5,167 nucleotides of DNA from JBHIER01 sp046760705 [NCBI: bacterium] (GTDB lineage: Bacteria; JBHIER01; G020348925). The DNA is taken from assembly GCA_046760705.1 (NCBI GenBank), contig JBHIER010000267.1, forward strand, positions 1 through 5,167, in the 5' to 3' direction. Position 1 is the stretch's first letter; every line of letters begins with the position of its first letter. Under the pieces are notes generated by a model. That model worked only from the letters and a program-made list of their open reading frames with translations, searched no databases and was not told the origin of the DNA. A program made the translations under genes and the position numbers. This document shows positions 46 to 5,167 of this stretch, piece by piece.

Positions 46-165
46 ATGATTCAAGGGCTTTGTAGACAGAGACTGTCTCTCGGTCTGATCCTGGCAGTGG
101 GGATGTTGGTCTTATTCTGGTATCCCCATCTGGGAGTTTGTCAACAGATTCCGAAGGCGAGCGCC
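46..165 (+). other. N-terminal signal peptide (Sec type), residues 1 to about 40
   Basis: Arg7 and Arg9 precede an uninterrupted hydrophobic stretch, about residues 10-26 (Leu, Gly, Ile, Ala, Val, Met, Phe, Trp), followed by a Pro-containing c-region. Ala38-Ser39-Ala40 fits an A-x-A signal peptidase I site, and cleavage after Cys32 is a possible alternative. The segment L-G-V-C at 29-32 is a poor lipobox because position -1 is Val, so a lipoprotein is less likely. The exact cleavage site is uncertain; export is well supported and agrees with the Cys-rich, calcium-binding body of the protein. Confidence 0.85.
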
Positions 166-3100
166 CTGGTCTCTGAAGCCAAGGTGTTGGAGCTGGCGGA
201 GCAATTCATTCAGAGTGGTCGGGGAGGCATGAGCTTTTTGGCCGGGGCGCGAGCGGGGAAGCCGGAGCTGGTATCCGGCGAATGGCGCGTGCCGATCCTC
301 AAGGACGGCAAATCGCTGGGCCTTTTTCATGCCCGAGCCACCCCGCTGAAGGACGGCGCTATACCGGTATGGTTTGCTGGACCAGGGGATAGTCAGCCCA
401 CCAAGGCTGCGACCTCAGCCAGGAGGGGCTCGCCAATTTTGGACCAGCGGATCCCCGGAGCGAAAGGCAGAGCCAGAGGTAAAGATGGTGCCGTGGGGAG
501 GCTGCCGACCAAAGCTCCCCTCAGACGGGGGGAAAAGAGTGCTGAGAAGGGTAAAAAGGCCGTCGGCCAGATGGGTGCCCCCGGGACTGCGCCCAGGGAG
601 GCTTCTGTGGCTGAGAGATCTTCGCGGGCCGGGGCTCGCGACAAAAAAGCCCCCACCGGCGAGCAGATCACACATGCCGCCCAGGGAGAGTCCCGAGCAT
701 TCAAACCGACCCGGGGTCCCTGGTCAAAAGAGTATAGGCAACACAGGCCATCCACTGCCGCGTCGAGACCGGAAGTCATCAAACGTGCTCCGGAAAAACT
801 CAATAGGGGTAAATCTTCGAAAAGTCCTGACGACGAACATGTGTCCACCGGCGATGACTGCGGTGACCCGGTCAAGGTGACACTGCCGGCCGACCTCCCT
901 TATGTGGATGCCAACACCACCTGCGGCCGAATTGATGACTACAGGGGAACCTGCCTGGATCCCTGGGACGGCGGGGAAGACATTATATACGAACTGACTG
1001 TCACTGAGATGGTTGACATTCTGATCACCTTGGATCCGAAAGGCACCGCATGGACCGGCTTCTGTGTGGACGATAATTGTCCCCCTGATTCCAGTTGCCT
1101 CGGGCAGAGCACCTCTGCCAGCGGTGATCCCCACGCCATATGTTGTCTGACACTGGATCGAGGTACTTACTATATTATGGTGGATACCTGGCCTTCACCG
1201 GATTGCATCCCGGAATTCGACCTGTTCATTGAGGCTTGCGAACCTTGTGTGGGAGTTGAATGTCCTCCCGGCGGTCTGGATGAAGATGAACCCTGCGGCG
1301 ACGACACCAACGGCGGGTGCAATTCCGATCCACCCGTCTTCACGGATATAAACTGCGGGGAAACGTACTGCGGTACAGCCTGGGCTGAAGATGGCACTCG
1401 CGACACCGATTGGTACCAGCTTGTGCTGACCGAATCGAAAACCATCACCTGGACCGTCGAGGCGGAGTTTGAGGTTATGATCGGTATCGGCGAGACAGAC
1501 CCACCTGGTTCCGGGGACTGCGCTGATATGACAGGGTATTTGAACCCTTATGCGGTCGGCTGCCCCTGTGAGGAAATCTCTGTGCAAGCAACCCTGGCCC
1601 CTGGAACCTATTGGCTTTTTGTGGCTCCAGCAGAGTTTGAGGGGTATTCGTGCAGCCAGGGACCGTGGGACTATGTCGCCTCGTTAGACTGCGTGGAGCC
1701 GTGCCAGATGGTGCTGCTGGAGGATTTCATGTGCCACGATCCCTGGGATGCCTATTACACCCGGACCGATACCTTTTACACCTGCGACTGGATGGCCTGG
1801 AAGCACACCGTTTGGAATACGAGCGACTGCCTGGATAGCGGGTCGGCCTGCTTCGTTTTTTACTATCCAGACGGCTCCTACTATACTGACCTTTGTGTGG
1901 AACTTGAGGCCGGCTGGGACGAGTACTGGGTCGCGGTGGGCATCTACATCTGTGGTGAAGATCCGCAACTCTCCCCTGGCACCTGGTCGGTGGAGGTCTG
2001 GCAGGGGAGTGTGCTCGAGGCGGTGAACAAATTTGAGATCATAGACTGCTGCCCGCCCGTCCTTTTGGATGAGGTCATGTGCCGGGATCCTTACAGCCCC
2101 CATGAGACTGAGACCTACACCTTCTGTACCTCCGATGCTTGGGCGGCTAAGTGGGCCCTGTGGAACTCCGAGCAGTGTCCGAACACCGTTTGGGCTGCTT
2201 TCGACTTTTATGATCCGGATGGCTACTACTACCTCAGCATATATGAGTACATCGCACCTGGCTACGCCGAATGGTACACCTGGGCGGCGATTTGGATCTG
2301 TGGGGCCTACCCAGCCGATTTCCCGGGCACCTGGAAAGTGGATATCTTGGCCCCCACCTGTTACTACTGGGACACCAATGAGTTCGACATCATTGAACAG
2401 GAGTGCCCGGCAGTGCTGGTGGAGGACTTCATGTGCCGCGATCCTGAGAACGATCCCTACGGCACCCAGACCGATACCTTTTACACCACCGACTTATGGG
2501 CAGCCAAATACACCGTATGGAACACCGAGGGATGCCAGGACTGCTATCCTCCTGTCTGCATCGACTTCTGGGATCCCGACGGAAACTGGTACTGGGGTTG
2601 GTGTTGGACCATCCCACCGGGGGAGCTTGACTACTGGCTCTGGGCGGCGATCTATATCGCGGGTTATTACCCGGCCGACAATTCGGGTACCTGGTGGGCT
2701 GATGTCTGGCTCTGTGATTCATTGATGGCGGAGAATGCCTTCGATATCGTCATCCCTACTTGTGTGGTTGAATGTCCTCCCGGCGGCCTGGATGAAGATG
2801 AGCCCTGCGGCGACGACATCAACGGCGGGTGCAATTCGGACCCGCCCGTCTTCACGGACATCAACTGCGGGGAAACATATTGTGGCTTAGCTTGGGCTGA
2901 AGATGGCACTCGCGACACCGATTGGTATCAACTGATGGTGGACGAAACAAAACCCGTCACTATGACCGTTATAGCGAATTTTCCTGTCGTGGCGGGATTC
3001 GCTGAAACCGACCCACCGGGTTCGGGCAATTGTGATGATGCTACAGGGGGGATATACCCTTATGCGCTTGGCTCCCCCTGTGGGGAAATTTCTGTGCAGG

Positions 3101-5167
3101 ACACCCTGAATCCTGGAATCTATTGGCTGTTCGTGGCCCCGCAGGATTTGGATGGCTATCCATGCCCGGGGCCGTGGGAATACGTCATGCGGGTAGACTG
3201 CGAAGTGGTGGTGGACCGCGATAACGATGGCATTCCGGACGATGAGGACAACTGTCCGGATGATCCCAATCCCTATCAAACGGATGGTGACCACGACGAG
3301 GTGGGTGATGTGTGTGACAACTGCCCTGATCATTACAACCCCTTTCAGGAGGACGGCGATGGTGACGGTTATGGCACCGCGTGCGATTGCGATGAGCCGG
3401 ACGTGCTGCCCGGTGTCGACCTGTTCACGACGCCGCCGGGCGGGGCCACATTCCAGGATTTCAGCGGGTTTCCGATTCCGGCCGACTTCTTCGGCCCCGG
3501 CTCGGACCCATTTGATGGCACCATCGTGCTCGGGGGCGTGCCGCTGAATACGAACCCGCCGGGTGTGCTGGGTCCGACCGACGTGATTGTCGAGCGGAAG
3601 GAGAAGGCGCACCTGCCCGACCCGTGTGCCAGCTCTGACGTGGTGCCTATCGAAATCGTGGCCCTGTCCCTGGTCAGCAGCCAACCGATCACCGTCACCT
3701 ACGGCGGCGGCTCGCCGGAGCTGTGGGACGTGCAGGTATGCCTGTCGAACCAGGTTCCCCAACCGCAAGGAACGATGACGATCAACCACGAACATCCTGA
3801 CGGCGGCACGTTCACGGCCGATCTTCCGGTTATTCCGCGATTTGTCTTCACCCGTCAGCCGGACGGAGCAGTGCGGGTCTTGGATCCGCCCCTGCCACCG
3901 ATCACCTTTACCACGCGGAACGGACACTGGGTGCACTGTGACCCTGGTTTCGGCCTGTTCACCTCGCCCGATTGTGGGCTCACCGTGGATCACGATTGCG
4001 ACGGCGTGGCTGATGTATCGGTGGCGGCCAGCAGCAATTTTGTCGCTGGTGTGCGGGGCATTTCCGATGTCTGTCCCGCTAACTGCACCAACCCGCCGAT
4101 AGAGTTCCAGAAGCGTCTGACAAAGGAGGAGGAACTGCTGGCGGCCCACGGCGTCCTGCCAGCTCAGGAGTGCTACTCTGATATGGACGAGGACGGGATT
4201 TGCGACGACGCCGACAACTGCCCGGAGGTTCCGAACCCGCTCCAGGAGGACCTGGACGACGACGGCGTGGGCGACCCCTGTGATAACTGCCCGGACATCT
4301 GTAACCCGTTCCAGGAGGACAGCGATCACGACGGCGTAGGCGACGCCTGCGATGTTGAAGGGGAGGTCGTGGCTTGGCTCGGATGTGATGACTTCTATTC
4401 CGGGACGCAGGTGGATGTGCCAATCATCATTGACATGACCGGGATGAATCCACCGGATGACAAGTTGGGCAGCTTCACCGGTTCGTTGGATTGGGATACA
4501 AGCCTGGTGGCCTACGCGAGTGATTCTGGCATCCTGGCAGGCTTCACCGGGGTGGTCAATGTCTCCCCTGGACATATAGCTTTCAATGGGGCCAATCCAA
4601 CAGGTGTTGGGGGAGAGGTGACTGTGCTGATCGTCACTTTTGATGTCATCGGTGCGGATAGTTCTACGGGGACTCTCGAACTGGACTTTTCGGCCATGGC
4701 TGCGGCCGGGACCTTTACGGACCTGCTGCCGTACCTCACGGTCAACGACTGCGAATTTCACATCGTGCCTCCTGGACTTTGTGGTGACATCAACGATGAT
4801 GAACAATGCAACTCAACTGACGCTCTGATCGTCCTCTCCTACGATGTGGGCTTGGACATACCTCCTGAATTCCTGGAGAAAATTAATGCTGGATGTGGAG
4901 ATATTAACGCCGACAATTCTACAAATTCCACCGATGCATTGATCATTCTGTCCCACGATGTGGGTATTCCGGTTCCCTTCCCCATCTGTGATGTTGGTTG
5001 TCCGTGTCCGGGTGCTCCGACCCACAAGACTGTTTCCGTGGCAGGGGTAAAGGTTTCTGCCTCGCCATCTGATTTCATCTTGGTCAAGGGAGAGCTCATC
5101 ACCGTTCCGGTTGAGGTTGATCTGGCCGGGACCGAGGAACTCCTGGGCAGCTTCACTGCTACTGTGG
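46..5167 (+). CDS. Giant secreted multidomain protein with PPC-like, TSP3, cohesin-like and dockerin-like modules (3' end missing)
   Basis: One frame is open from the ATG at 46 to the window edge: 1707 full codons, no stop. An in-frame TGA at 31-33 bounds it upstream, and a strong ribosome binding site ends 5 bases before the ATG, so the start is well supported. Seen in the translation: a signal peptide, a basic linker, three PPC-like beta domains (two are duplicates), three tandem Trp/Cys-rich domains, two blocks of Asp-rich TSP3-like repeats around an unassigned beta module, a cohesin-like domain, a paired EF-hand dockerin-like module, and the start of another cohesin-like domain. Cysteines are very frequent from residue 270 on, which fits oxidative folding outside the cytoplasm. 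No catalytic motif was recognised. By family knowledge, TSP3 and dockerin loops bind calcium and cohesins bind dockerins. The inferred role is a surface or extracellular scaffold or adhesin. Its partners, C-terminal anchor and operon are outside the window. The gene and frame are near certain; the function is tentative. Confidence 0.96.
166..387 (+). other. Small N-terminal domain of unknown family, residues about 41-114
   Basis: This is a compact alpha-then-beta pattern. An amphipathic helix is likely at about 41-57 ([14 protein letters not shown]), then a Gly-rich turn, then alternating hydrophobic strands around GEWRVPIL (78-85), [11 protein letters not shown] (91-101) and IPVWFAGPG (106-114). 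The helix followed by a W-x-V-P-x strand resembles small propeptide-like (PepSY/FTP-style) domains in layout, but no diagnostic motif is visible. It lies directly between the signal peptide and the basic linker and contains no cysteine, unlike the rest of the mature protein. The family is not recognised. Confidence 0.45.
388..831 (+). other. Strongly basic low-complexity linker, residues about 115-262
   Basis: This stretch is rich in Lys, Arg, Ala, Gly, Pro and Ser, with no cysteine and no regular strand pattern, so it is probably disordered. I count 19 Arg and 16 Lys against 13 Asp/Glu in residues 115-260, a net charge near +22, whereas the rest of the mature chain is acidic. Twelve of the 19 Arg codons are AGA or AGG, a usage almost absent from the rest of the gene. 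It may contact acidic envelope polymers or the protein's own acidic repeats, or be a plain spacer; this is inference. The reading frame stays continuous with both flanks. Confidence 0.7.
853..1239 (+). other. PPC-like Cys-rich beta domain 1, residues about 270-398
   Basis: The domain opens with D-D-C-G-D-P and contains T-T-C-G-R-I-D-D-Y (291-299), a G-G-E-D-I-I-Y-E-L strand (309-317), a V-D-D-N-C-P segment (341-346), an [11 protein letters not shown] strand pair (370-380), and a closing F-D-L-F-I-E-A-C. This order (opening D/C turn, D-x-x-Y strand, then a late G-T-Y-x-x-x-V strand) is typical of bacterial PPC-like beta-sandwich domains in secreted proteins. In that family the domain is non-catalytic and often aids secretion or binding. 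Several cysteines suggest disulfides. The fold assignment rests on motif order only. Confidence 0.6.
1255..1692 (+). repeat. PPC-like domain 2, duplicate copy A, residues 404-549
   Basis: Copy A of a long intragenic duplication; copy B lies 1512 bases (504 codons) downstream. It starts with a Cys/Asp-rich head ([17 protein letters not shown]), continues through C-G-E-T-Y-C-G and D-T-D-W-Y-Q-L, and ends with the [10 protein letters not shown] strand and a G-P-W-D-Y turn. D-T-D-W-Y plus P-G-T-Y-W-x-F-V is a PPC-style core. The first 56 residues match copy B at 54 positions; the remaining 90 match at about 53. A role in binding or spacing is inferred; no catalytic residues are apparent. Confidence 0.8.
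1711..2049 (+). repeat. Trp/Cys-rich Ig-like tandem repeat 1, residues 556-668
   Basis: First of three tandem domains of about 115 residues. It shares with the other two an opening V-L-x-E-x-x-M-C-x-D-P block (Met562, Cys563), a T-D-T-F-Y strand, W-N at 590-591, a P-D-G turn at 608-610, an aromatic strand ([10 protein letters not shown]), and P-G-T-W at 644-647 followed by a V-E-V-W strand and F-E-I-I at the end. The W, PDG and PGTW pattern recalls an Ig-like beta-sandwich module of bacterial surface proteins, but I cannot name the family with confidence. Confidence 0.75.
2059..2406 (+). repeat. Trp/Cys-rich Ig-like tandem repeat 2, residues 672-787
   Basis: Second copy, beginning 116 residues after repeat 1. 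Conserved marks are M-C-R-D-P (678-682), W-A-A-K (699-702), W-N at 706-707, D-P-D-G at 723-726, the aromatic strand W-Y-T-W-A-A-I-W-I (743-751), Y-P-A-D (755-758), P-G-T-W (760-763) and F-D-I-I near the end. It is visibly closer to repeat 3 than to repeat 1, sharing M-C-R-D-P, W-A-A-K, W-A-A-I and Y-P-A-D. Cysteines at 679, 694, 711, 752, 772 and 787 suggest disulfides. Confidence 0.75.
2413..2763 (+). repeat. Trp/Cys-rich Ig-like tandem repeat 3, residues 790-906
   Basis: Third copy, with M-C-R-D-P (796-800), T-D-T-F-Y (809-813), W-A-A-K-Y (818-822), W-N at 825-826, D-P-D-G (843-846), [11 protein letters not shown] (863-873), Y-P-A-D (875-878), G-T-W (881-883) and F-D-I-V near the end. It is extremely aromatic: residues 842-866 alone contain eight Trp. 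The following residues run directly into duplicate copy B of the PPC-like domain. Solvent-exposed aromatics in such repeats often bind carbohydrate, but that is only a possibility here. Confidence 0.75.
2767..3201 (+). repeat. PPC-like domain 3, duplicate copy B, residues 908-1052
   Basis: Copy B of the domain at residues 404-549. The head (908-963) differs from copy A at only two residues (Thr to Ile at 925, Thr to Leu at 948), while the rest has diverged to about 59% identity with one single-residue gap. A 35-base stretch at 2893-2927 is identical to 1381-1415. The same core strands are present: [13 protein letters not shown], and Y-W-L-F-V-A-P. It leads straight into the TSP3-like repeats. 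Confidence 0.8.
3208..3390 (+). repeat. Thrombospondin type 3-like calcium-binding repeats, block 1, residues 1055-1115
   Basis: Asp-rich loops follow one another: [15 protein letters not shown] (1057-1071), [15 protein letters not shown] (1080-1094) and [12 protein letters not shown] (1103-1114). The spacing of Asp/Asn, Gly and Cys-Pro is typical of TSP3 repeats, which wrap calcium ions and form a stiff stalk in known proteins. The tail [10 protein letters not shown] also resembles the short metal-binding motif that often follows such loops in bacterial secreted proteins. Calcium binding is inferred from family knowledge. Confidence 0.88.
3415..4170 (+). other. Beta-rich module of unknown family, residues about 1124-1375
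   Basis: About 250 residues lie between two TSP3-like blocks. They are rich in Pro, Gly and beta-prone strands (for example [33 protein letters not shown]). The segment D-H-D-C-D-G-V-A-D at 1315-1323 is one isolated TSP3-like loop near its C-terminal side. Residues 1350-1375 form a likely short charged helix ([15 protein letters not shown]) that joins it to the next block. Third-position GC is clearly higher here (125 of 160 codons from 3421 to 3900) than in the flanks. No known family is recognised. Confidence 0.5.
4180..4353 (+). repeat. Thrombospondin type 3-like calcium-binding repeats, block 2, residues 1379-1436
   Basis: Loops [15 protein letters not shown] (1379-1393), [15 protein letters not shown] (1402-1416) and [12 protein letters not shown] (1425-1436) follow the TSP3 pattern closely, with N-P-L-Q-E-D and N-P-F-Q-E-D linkers. 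The N-P-F-Q-E-D linker also occurs in block 1. It leads directly into the cohesin-like domain, so in the mature protein it probably acts as a calcium-stiffened stalk presenting the C-terminal modules. Confidence 0.9.
4357..4773 (+). other. Cohesin-like domain 1, residues about 1438-1576
   Basis: The strand order fits a cohesin jelly-roll: an opening strand, then [15 protein letters not shown] (1452-1466), [15 protein letters not shown] (1474-1488), a G-F-T-G-V-V-N-V loop, G-H-I-A-F-N-G-A (1509-1516), a Gly-rich turn, then [11 protein letters not shown] (1525-1535) and a terminal strand ending near 1575. The V-P-I-x-I-D, F-x-x-x-L-x-W-D and L-x-x-x-x-F-x-V positions are those shared by cohesins. 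Length of about 140 residues is normal. Cohesins bind dockerins; its partner here is unknown. Related surface beta-sandwich domains cannot be excluded. Confidence 0.75.
4780..4977 (+). other. Dockerin-like module with two EF-hand-type calcium loops, residues 1579-1644
   Basis: Two near-identical halves are separated by 38 residues: loop 1 at 1581-1592 ([12 protein letters not shown]) and loop 2 at 1619-1630 ([12 protein letters not shown]). Each has ligands at loop positions 1, 3, 5, 9 and 12 (Asp, Asn, Asp, Asn, Asp) and is followed by A-L-I-(V/I)-L-S-(Y/H)-D-V-G. Both loops carry Ser-Thr at positions 10-11, the pair known for cohesin recognition in Clostridium thermocellum type I dockerins, but positions 17-18 are Leu-Ser rather than Lys-Arg. 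The module lies internally between two cohesin-like domains, unlike the usual C-terminal position. Confidence 0.88.
5026..5167 (+). other. Cohesin-like domain 2, partial, residues about 1661-1707 and onward
   Basis: After a Cys/Pro-rich spacer (residues 1646-1660) a new beta domain begins. [14 protein letters not shown] (1682-1695) and L-L-G-S-F-T-A-T-V (1699-1707) line up with the equivalent parts of cohesin-like domain 1 ([11 protein letters not shown] and L-G-S-F-T-G-S-L). The window ends within the domain, so its length and what follows are unknown. The match in both position and order makes a second cohesin-like domain likely. Confidence 0.65.

Follow-up and report, generated by a model that had tools for sequence, protein, structure and literature searches.

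Cohesin and dockerin modules in a single open reading frame suggest a one-chain form of a proposed two-gene surface-attachment system of relatives in the KSB1 group

Introduction

Cohesin-dockerin modules are not confined to cellulosomes, and elsewhere few of them are known to have a tested role. The locus studied here raises the question of what a dockerin may bind when it lies between two cohesins on one chain. The window, i.e. the whole stretch of 5,167 nucleotides from contig JBHIER010000267.1 of the bacterium JBHIER01 sp046760705, encodes the greater part of its length as one large protein with this layout. We give a probability of roughly 0.5 to the reading that the modules make up a C-terminal surface-attachment cassette of a large secreted protein and would correspond, joined into one chain, to two neighbouring genes of relatives from the KSB1 group, the second of which often encodes a cohesin with a type IX secretion system (T9SS) sorting domain. 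The features on which this proposal builds are the following.

46 to 5166, forward strand: open reading frame of 1707 residues, open at the 3' window end, with a signal-peptide-like N-terminus (by eye)
4363 to 4773, forward strand: cohesin 1 (profile match at residues 1450-1570; fold matches)
4774 to 4980, forward strand: type I dockerin with two repeats, NSTDAL in both (Pfam, PDB chains, alignment with relatives)
4981 to 5019, forward strand: 13-residue remnant of the C-terminal Cys tail that ends the relatives' dockerin proteins (comparison with relatives)
5020 to 5046, forward strand: nine-residue join THKTVSVAG, in the position of the relatives' stop codon, start and signal-peptide-like stretch (comparison with relatives)
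5047 to 5166, forward strand: start of cohesin 2, about 40 residues, cut by the window end (profile; identity to a relative's cohesin)

Residues are numbered from the ATG at position 46, so that the window ends at residue 1707. The profile edges are 1450-1570 for cohesin 1, 1577-1645 for the dockerin and 1671 to 1707 for cohesin 2.

Results

A cohesin, a type I dockerin and the start of a second cohesin

The window carries a cohesin, a type I dockerin and a partial second cohesin, and both the order and the coordinates given by an earlier sequence-only reading proved right. For the dockerin, Pfam Dockerin_1 (PF00404) matched residues 1580-1634 with 27.1 to 33.1 bits against a curated cut-off of 22.9 (E 4.9e-6 in the whole protein, 6.3e-8 with the module alone), and the best PDB chains were cellulosomal dockerins (E 0.002). 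The two repeats are 15-residue calcium-loop stretches with Asp/Asn, in columns that are invariant in 18 sequences. NSTDA is found in both repeats of 14 of the 18 aligned dockerins, and the alignment of the CelS dockerin has identical letters. The window dockerin lacks two Cys residues that are common in its relatives (in LSC, and the F/Y-C before PMN). Instead, a Cys precedes its first calcium loop, and the stretch between its repeats is longer than in the relatives.

Profile searches placed the dockerin over its cut-off and were divided on cohesin 1: the window's own sequence gave no match to Pfam Cohesin (PF00963) at E up to 10, whereas 9 of the 19 rows of its alignment matched this family (best E 4.8e-9). 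A PDB sequence search with the initial four-row cohesin alignment returned no cohesin among its matches. With the 19-row profile, the non-cellulosomal cohesin 2xdh of Archaeoglobus fulgidus came first at E 0.29, which is not significant alone; this archaeal protein shares 18-20% identity and is also among the fold matches of both programs used. Models of cohesin 1 were of moderate confidence, with a mean predicted local distance difference test score (pLDDT) of 48 for cohesin plus dockerin and 56 for the cohesin alone. For the former, the top 44 Foldseek PDB rows were all cohesins, cohesin-dockerin complexes or parts of scaffoldins (E 2e-4 to 2e-2, 10 of them at 0.001 or better), counting 2o4e and 3kcp, which we take to be cohesin-type entries although their titles are silent. 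The dockerin part of that model has a pLDDT of about 30, and contacts between the modules are not readable from it. For the cohesin alone, VIA-align rows 1-26 were cohesins or their complexes (Z 9.2 to 7.8); the row after them, an unrelated streptococcal adhesin, follows closely (Z 7.7). Cohesin 2 covers about 40 of about 130 residues; a profile into which the window was built detects it with E 3.3e-6, and it is 51% identical over 39 columns to the complete cohesin of a relative.

Relatives in the KSB1 phylum

A contig scan returned one named relative, a metagenome-assembled genome of candidate division KSB1 with two tandem cohesins (56% identity in the best segment), and two scans of viral contigs gave no relative. 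We used 82 KSB1-phylum genomes as a comparison set. Positions 4357-5166 of the window were matched in 13 of them. The best match was G066, where cohesin 1 and dockerin align together with 53% identity and E 2.6e-64; because one relative matches both modules at once, their combination in the window is not due to chance. We refer to the dockerin class of the window as A3 and to its cohesin class as A2. Profile searches located A3 dockerins at 19 places in 8 genomes and A2 cohesins at 24 places in 13 genomes, including all 8 with A3. The 13 genomes were picked for matching A2, and the E-values of rows that were both built into the A2 or A3 profile, as the window and later-scored loci were, and searched with it are not independent.

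In this set, A3 dockerins stand at the ends of secreted proteins. The bodies of the 16 A3 dockerin proteins that were scanned include papain-like, subtilisin-like and C39-like peptidases, as well as sortilin repeats, FG-GAP repeats, a beta-helix and, in one protein (L041), a CBM9. The sequence-only reading had proposed an assembly without enzyme cargo. For the class this fails, since some of the relatives' dockerin chains carry peptidases. A cohesin 1-dockerin dyad as in the window occurs in 4 of 18 A3 chains of relatives, and the other 14 have no cohesin of their own. All 18 complete A3 dockerin proteins (L039-L054; L053, cut by a contig end, is excluded) close with the tail CPx(4-6)CxGC, one to three residues from the C-terminus. 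This conserved Cys-rich tail may act as a signal for sorting or maturation.

In relatives, dockerin and second cohesin often belong to adjoining genes

The two-gene arrangement is best seen in G066. A papain-type peptidase ends there with a cohesin and a dockerin, and its stop codon lies 19 residues past the dockerin. The next ATG is found 26 bases further on; the frame that begins there encodes a signal-peptide-like N-terminus followed by a cohesin and a T9SS-type domain. The contig extends for at least 500 bases beyond 14 of the 19 A3 dockerins. An A2 cohesin gene is directly next in 8 of these 14, and in one more it comes after a second dockerin gene. For a fifteenth dockerin (G014:C42, 295 bases left) the start of a cohesin follows, and the remaining four lie 288 bases or less from the contig end. 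Among nine directly following cohesin genes, seven have a T9SS-type domain, one is cut by the contig end and one has none.

The NCBIfam T9SS type A sorting domain scored over its cut-off in 3 of 3 downstream cohesin genes and in 4 of 4 chains of the fused type described below that were scanned. The T9SS translocon family SprA_N was present in 13 of 13 genomes versus 0 of 14 controls. On the dockerin chain itself, the T9SS domain is found in 0 of 18 A3 chains (L053 again excluded) versus 19 of 26 non-A3 chains (one of the 19, G001:C259, was missed by our own dockerin profile), a comparison for which the counts were entered by hand and Fisher tests ignore relatedness. The frequent division of dockerin and second cohesin between two adjoining genes, in most cases with a T9SS domain behind the cohesin, suggests attachment to the cell surface.

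The window as the fused form

In G066 the Cys tail is followed by a stop codon and a signal peptide. In the window, a shortened 13-residue tail leads instead through nine residues into the beginning of a cohesin, without a break in the frame. When cohesin 2 was compared over 35-42 columns with 18 rows, the best four were all cohesins of downstream genes (51, 50, 45 and 42%); the window's own cohesins 1 and 2 share 31%. Judged by these sequence comparisons, the window is the one-chain form of the two-gene pair, minus the separating stop codon and signal peptide. No further fused A3 chain was found among the A2 and A3 matches in the 82 genomes.

Fused chains are found in other dockerin classes. 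Clear chains with the order cohesin, dockerin, cohesin and T9SS domain account for 8 of 26 non-A3 dockerins (L058, L059, L061, L062, L063, L066, L067 and L075), with cohesin 2 at E 1.7e-10 or better. Other non-A3 chains combine a dockerin and a T9SS domain with a cohesin that is weak or single. In L055, L056 (second frame), L065, L068, L069 and L080 the cohesin that separates the dockerin from the T9SS domain is weak (E 0.006 to 0.04), and in L064 and L070 the profile found none at this place. The 26 dockerins comprise 25 from the scan plus G001:C278 (L058), which at E 0.00113 was just over the threshold and was added in the knowledge that cohesins adjoin it; without it the counts are 7 of 25 fused, 18 of 25 with a T9SS domain and, for the analysis below, 13 of 25 with a neighbouring cohesin. 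In one locus (L062 2161-8503, G053:C333) four frames in a row read cohesin-dockerin-cohesin-T9SS, cohesin-dockerin, cohesin-dockerin and cohesin-T9SS. Judged by this row and by the fused chains of other classes, the two-gene and one-chain forms appear to be exchangeable.

A further frame of the phylum (L071 1-6639, G040:C656), with 2213 residues and a cut start, contains eight cohesins recognised by the profile, along with a weak match to a T9SS-type domain, and is predicted to be a multi-cohesin scaffoldin.

Neighbouring cohesins largely sort by dockerin class

A same-strand cohesin lies within 4 kb, the same chain included, of 11 of 19 A3 dockerins, and all of these cohesins are A2; the corresponding count is 14 of 26 for the other dockerins, and none of these is A2. 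Only cohesins found by Pfam or as A2 entered this count. The fused chain L075 (G040:C259) has no neighbour in it, yet it contains two cohesins by our own profile.

On a tree of 63 cohesins, the class of the local dockerin needs 14 changes versus a mean of 42.1 after shuffling, and 0 of 200 shuffles were as low; this tree was built by a quick method from 124 columns and 63 rows, 27 of its 60 inner branches are open, the class labels were assigned by hand, and no label was given to 12 rows whose contig has no dockerin. All 16 A3-labelled cohesins fall inside one starred set of 20, the other four of which are unlabelled. Cohesin 2 of the window was excluded for its length. Ancestry of the genomes alone does not account for the class matching, because A3 labels occur beside other labels in G014, G041, G053 and G066. 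The sorting of neighbouring cohesins by dockerin class gives indirect support to the view that dockerin and cohesins are matched to one another.

The remainder of the window protein

Upstream of cohesin 1, two blocks of repeats were delimited by eye.

3208 to 3396, forward strand: thrombospondin type 3-like (TSP3-like) Asp-rich repeats, block 1 (Pfam TSP_3 below cut-off)
4177 to 4353, forward strand: thrombospondin type 3-like repeats, block 2, directly before cohesin 1 (Pfam TSP_3 below cut-off)

Pfam, run on the whole window protein and on pieces of it, gave only Dockerin_1 and sub-threshold TSP_3, the latter at five stretches with residues 1376-1400 as the best. No carbohydrate-active or carbohydrate-binding module was found in the window by Pfam, and the sequence-only statement on carbohydrate-active domains holds. 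NCBIfam matches to MtsC (residues 1378-1437) and Omp28 were rejected, as both sit on the TSP3-like repeats and far under their cut-offs. Positions 3406-4170, about 255 residues between the TSP3-like blocks, matched no Pfam family. Further upstream, two very similar blocks with DTDWYQL are visible by eye at 1258-1690 and 2761-3200; they enclose three similar repeats (about 1700-2760), the last of which has two adjoining matches of 38-40% in G060:C121. The body of the window protein was matched in 4 of the 82 genomes, mostly via the TSP3-like repeats.

Discussion

A proposed surface-attachment cassette

Building on the observed modules, class matching, gene order, sorting domains of relatives and the in-frame join of the window, we infer binding of the dockerin, the identity of its partner cohesin, anchoring and the continuation of the gene as follows. 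The T9SS sorting domain would export the second cohesin and fix it at the outer membrane. The dockerin would bind the T9SS-anchored cohesin of its class. In the two-gene form this would happen in trans; in the fused form the cohesin could be in cis or belong to a neighbouring copy, and the covalent join may replace or assist the dockerin-cohesin bond. Cohesin 1 would then be left as a receptor for another dockerin protein of the same class, and cargo could be stacked at the cell surface. Candidate ligands of cohesin 1 are the same-class dockerin proteins, some of which (in G014) have no adjoining cohesin gene. Beyond the window end, the gene would continue into a T9SS domain.

Several points weigh against this proposal. 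The window stops before any T9SS domain, and none of the eight A3 genomes matches the body of the window protein, so that any lineage assigned to it is tentative. Five of the 14 A3 dockerins with sufficient contig behind them have no adjoining cohesin gene (four in G014, one in G001), and the complete 180-residue cohesin frame downstream of a dockerin in L045 187-726 (G041:C125), which lies between dockerin genes, has no T9SS domain. G040:C292 and G041:C125 are near copies. One downstream cohesin (L049 7643-8050) came last of the 18 rows compared with cohesin 2 of the window, at 23%. On the cohesin tree, class NH is unclustered (500 of 500 shuffles as low) and the classes NQ, DL, II and YDA need two changes each. 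Common descent of whole loci partially explains the class matching. Moreover, a cohesin in cis might occupy the dockerin and leave it unavailable.

Alternative explanations

The proposal of surface attachment has to be weighed against five alternatives. In the first, suggested by the sequence-only reading, the dockerin of one copy binds the cohesin of the next, and a head-to-tail fibre or lattice results as a surface polymer. A cohesin and a dockerin of one class do share a chain, and cohesin 1-dockerin dyads recur in the 4 of 18 A3 chains mentioned above. The other 14 of 18, however, contain no cohesin and could do no more than terminate a polymer, the partner gene mostly bears an anchor, and we found no feature peculiar to a polymer; while the module calls of that reading stand, the fibre is without specific support and we regard it as rather unlikely. 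We place slightly below it, and likewise without specific support, an intramolecular clasp, in which the dockerin and cohesin 2 (or 1) would be permanently paired into a stiff stalk before the anchor. The order cohesin-dockerin-cohesin-T9SS recurs in eight chains, and the spacing between dockerin and cohesin 2 (25 residues in the window, 30-45 in the eight fused chains, by profile edges) would allow the chain to fold back. Yet if the pair served only as a stalk it would be needless in the two-gene forms, and the four A3 dockerins of G014 without a neighbouring cohesin suit capture in trans.

The cohesin-dockerin pair could also be a secretion adaptor, with proteins that lack a T9SS signal but carry a class-specific dockerin and the Cys tail folding in the periplasm and crossing the outer membrane on a dedicated cohesin-T9SS carrier encoded by the neighbouring gene. 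Fusion of the genes would make such an adaptor needless and thus fits the decay of the Cys tail in the window; we consider this explanation improbable, and less so only than those that follow. It is more doubtful still, and again without specific support, that both folds were kept as structural leftovers after binding was lost. Cohesin 1 of the window is indeed too distant for Pfam Cohesin to match, and many dockerin-like modules outside cellulosomes have no partner known to us. Against such a loss stand the gene pairing, the class matching and the conservation of residues beyond the calcium ligands, the NSTDA of both repeats being shared by 14 of 18 dockerins with CelS. Finally, an assembly error that joined two genes would agree with the lack of a second fused A3 chain among the A2 and A3 matches in the 82 genomes, but it is very improbable in view of a 5.1-kb frame without a stop, a clean join, in which the shortened tail passes over nine residues into the cohesin and nothing is left of a signal peptide, and the fused order in other classes.

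Comparison with known systems

The window modules have the same two folds as the type I pairs of Clostridium thermocellum, and the dockerin likewise has two calcium-loop repeats with NSTDA as in CelS. In contrast to that system, no cellulase or carbohydrate-binding module was found in the window, and the cohesins flank the dockerin. Whereas S-layer modules are the anchor of the C. thermocellum cellulosome, the adjoining anchor in the relatives studied here is a T9SS domain.

For Candidatus (Ca.) Stygibacter (Cloacimonadota), a cellulosome-like complex of enzymes with C-terminal dockerins and a surface-anchored cohesin scaffoldin has been proposed (PMC8542988). This system resembles ours in combining dockerin proteins with a cohesin protein whose C-terminal domain serves attachment to the cell's own surface; it differs in having one multi-cohesin scaffoldin of 3,755 residues, whereas here we find mostly one cohesin per downstream gene, gene-by-gene pairs and a fused chain (PMC8542988). 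Proteins of anaerobic methanotrophic (ANME) archaea combine a single dockerin with up to five cohesins (PMC9012536). They are similar in that cohesins and dockerin share a non-cellulosomal chain; they are archaeal, and pairing with a neighbouring gene is not among the features described in the available part of that source (PMC9012536). Literature searches for dockerins in KSB1, or for dockerin with cohesin in Latescibacteria, found none, and a search for T9SS with dockerin in candidate phyla returned only PMC8542988. On what could be searched, the gene-by-gene cohesin-dockerin pairing and the fused form appear to be new.

Taken together, the gene pairs, the fused chains and the matching classes offer a concrete prediction of binding partners in an uncultured phylum, and they connect the cohesin-dockerin pair with a T9SS-based attachment of peptidases and other proteins to the cell surface. 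If binding is indeed class-specific, protein engineers could draw on the classes as a collection of mutually orthogonal connectors.

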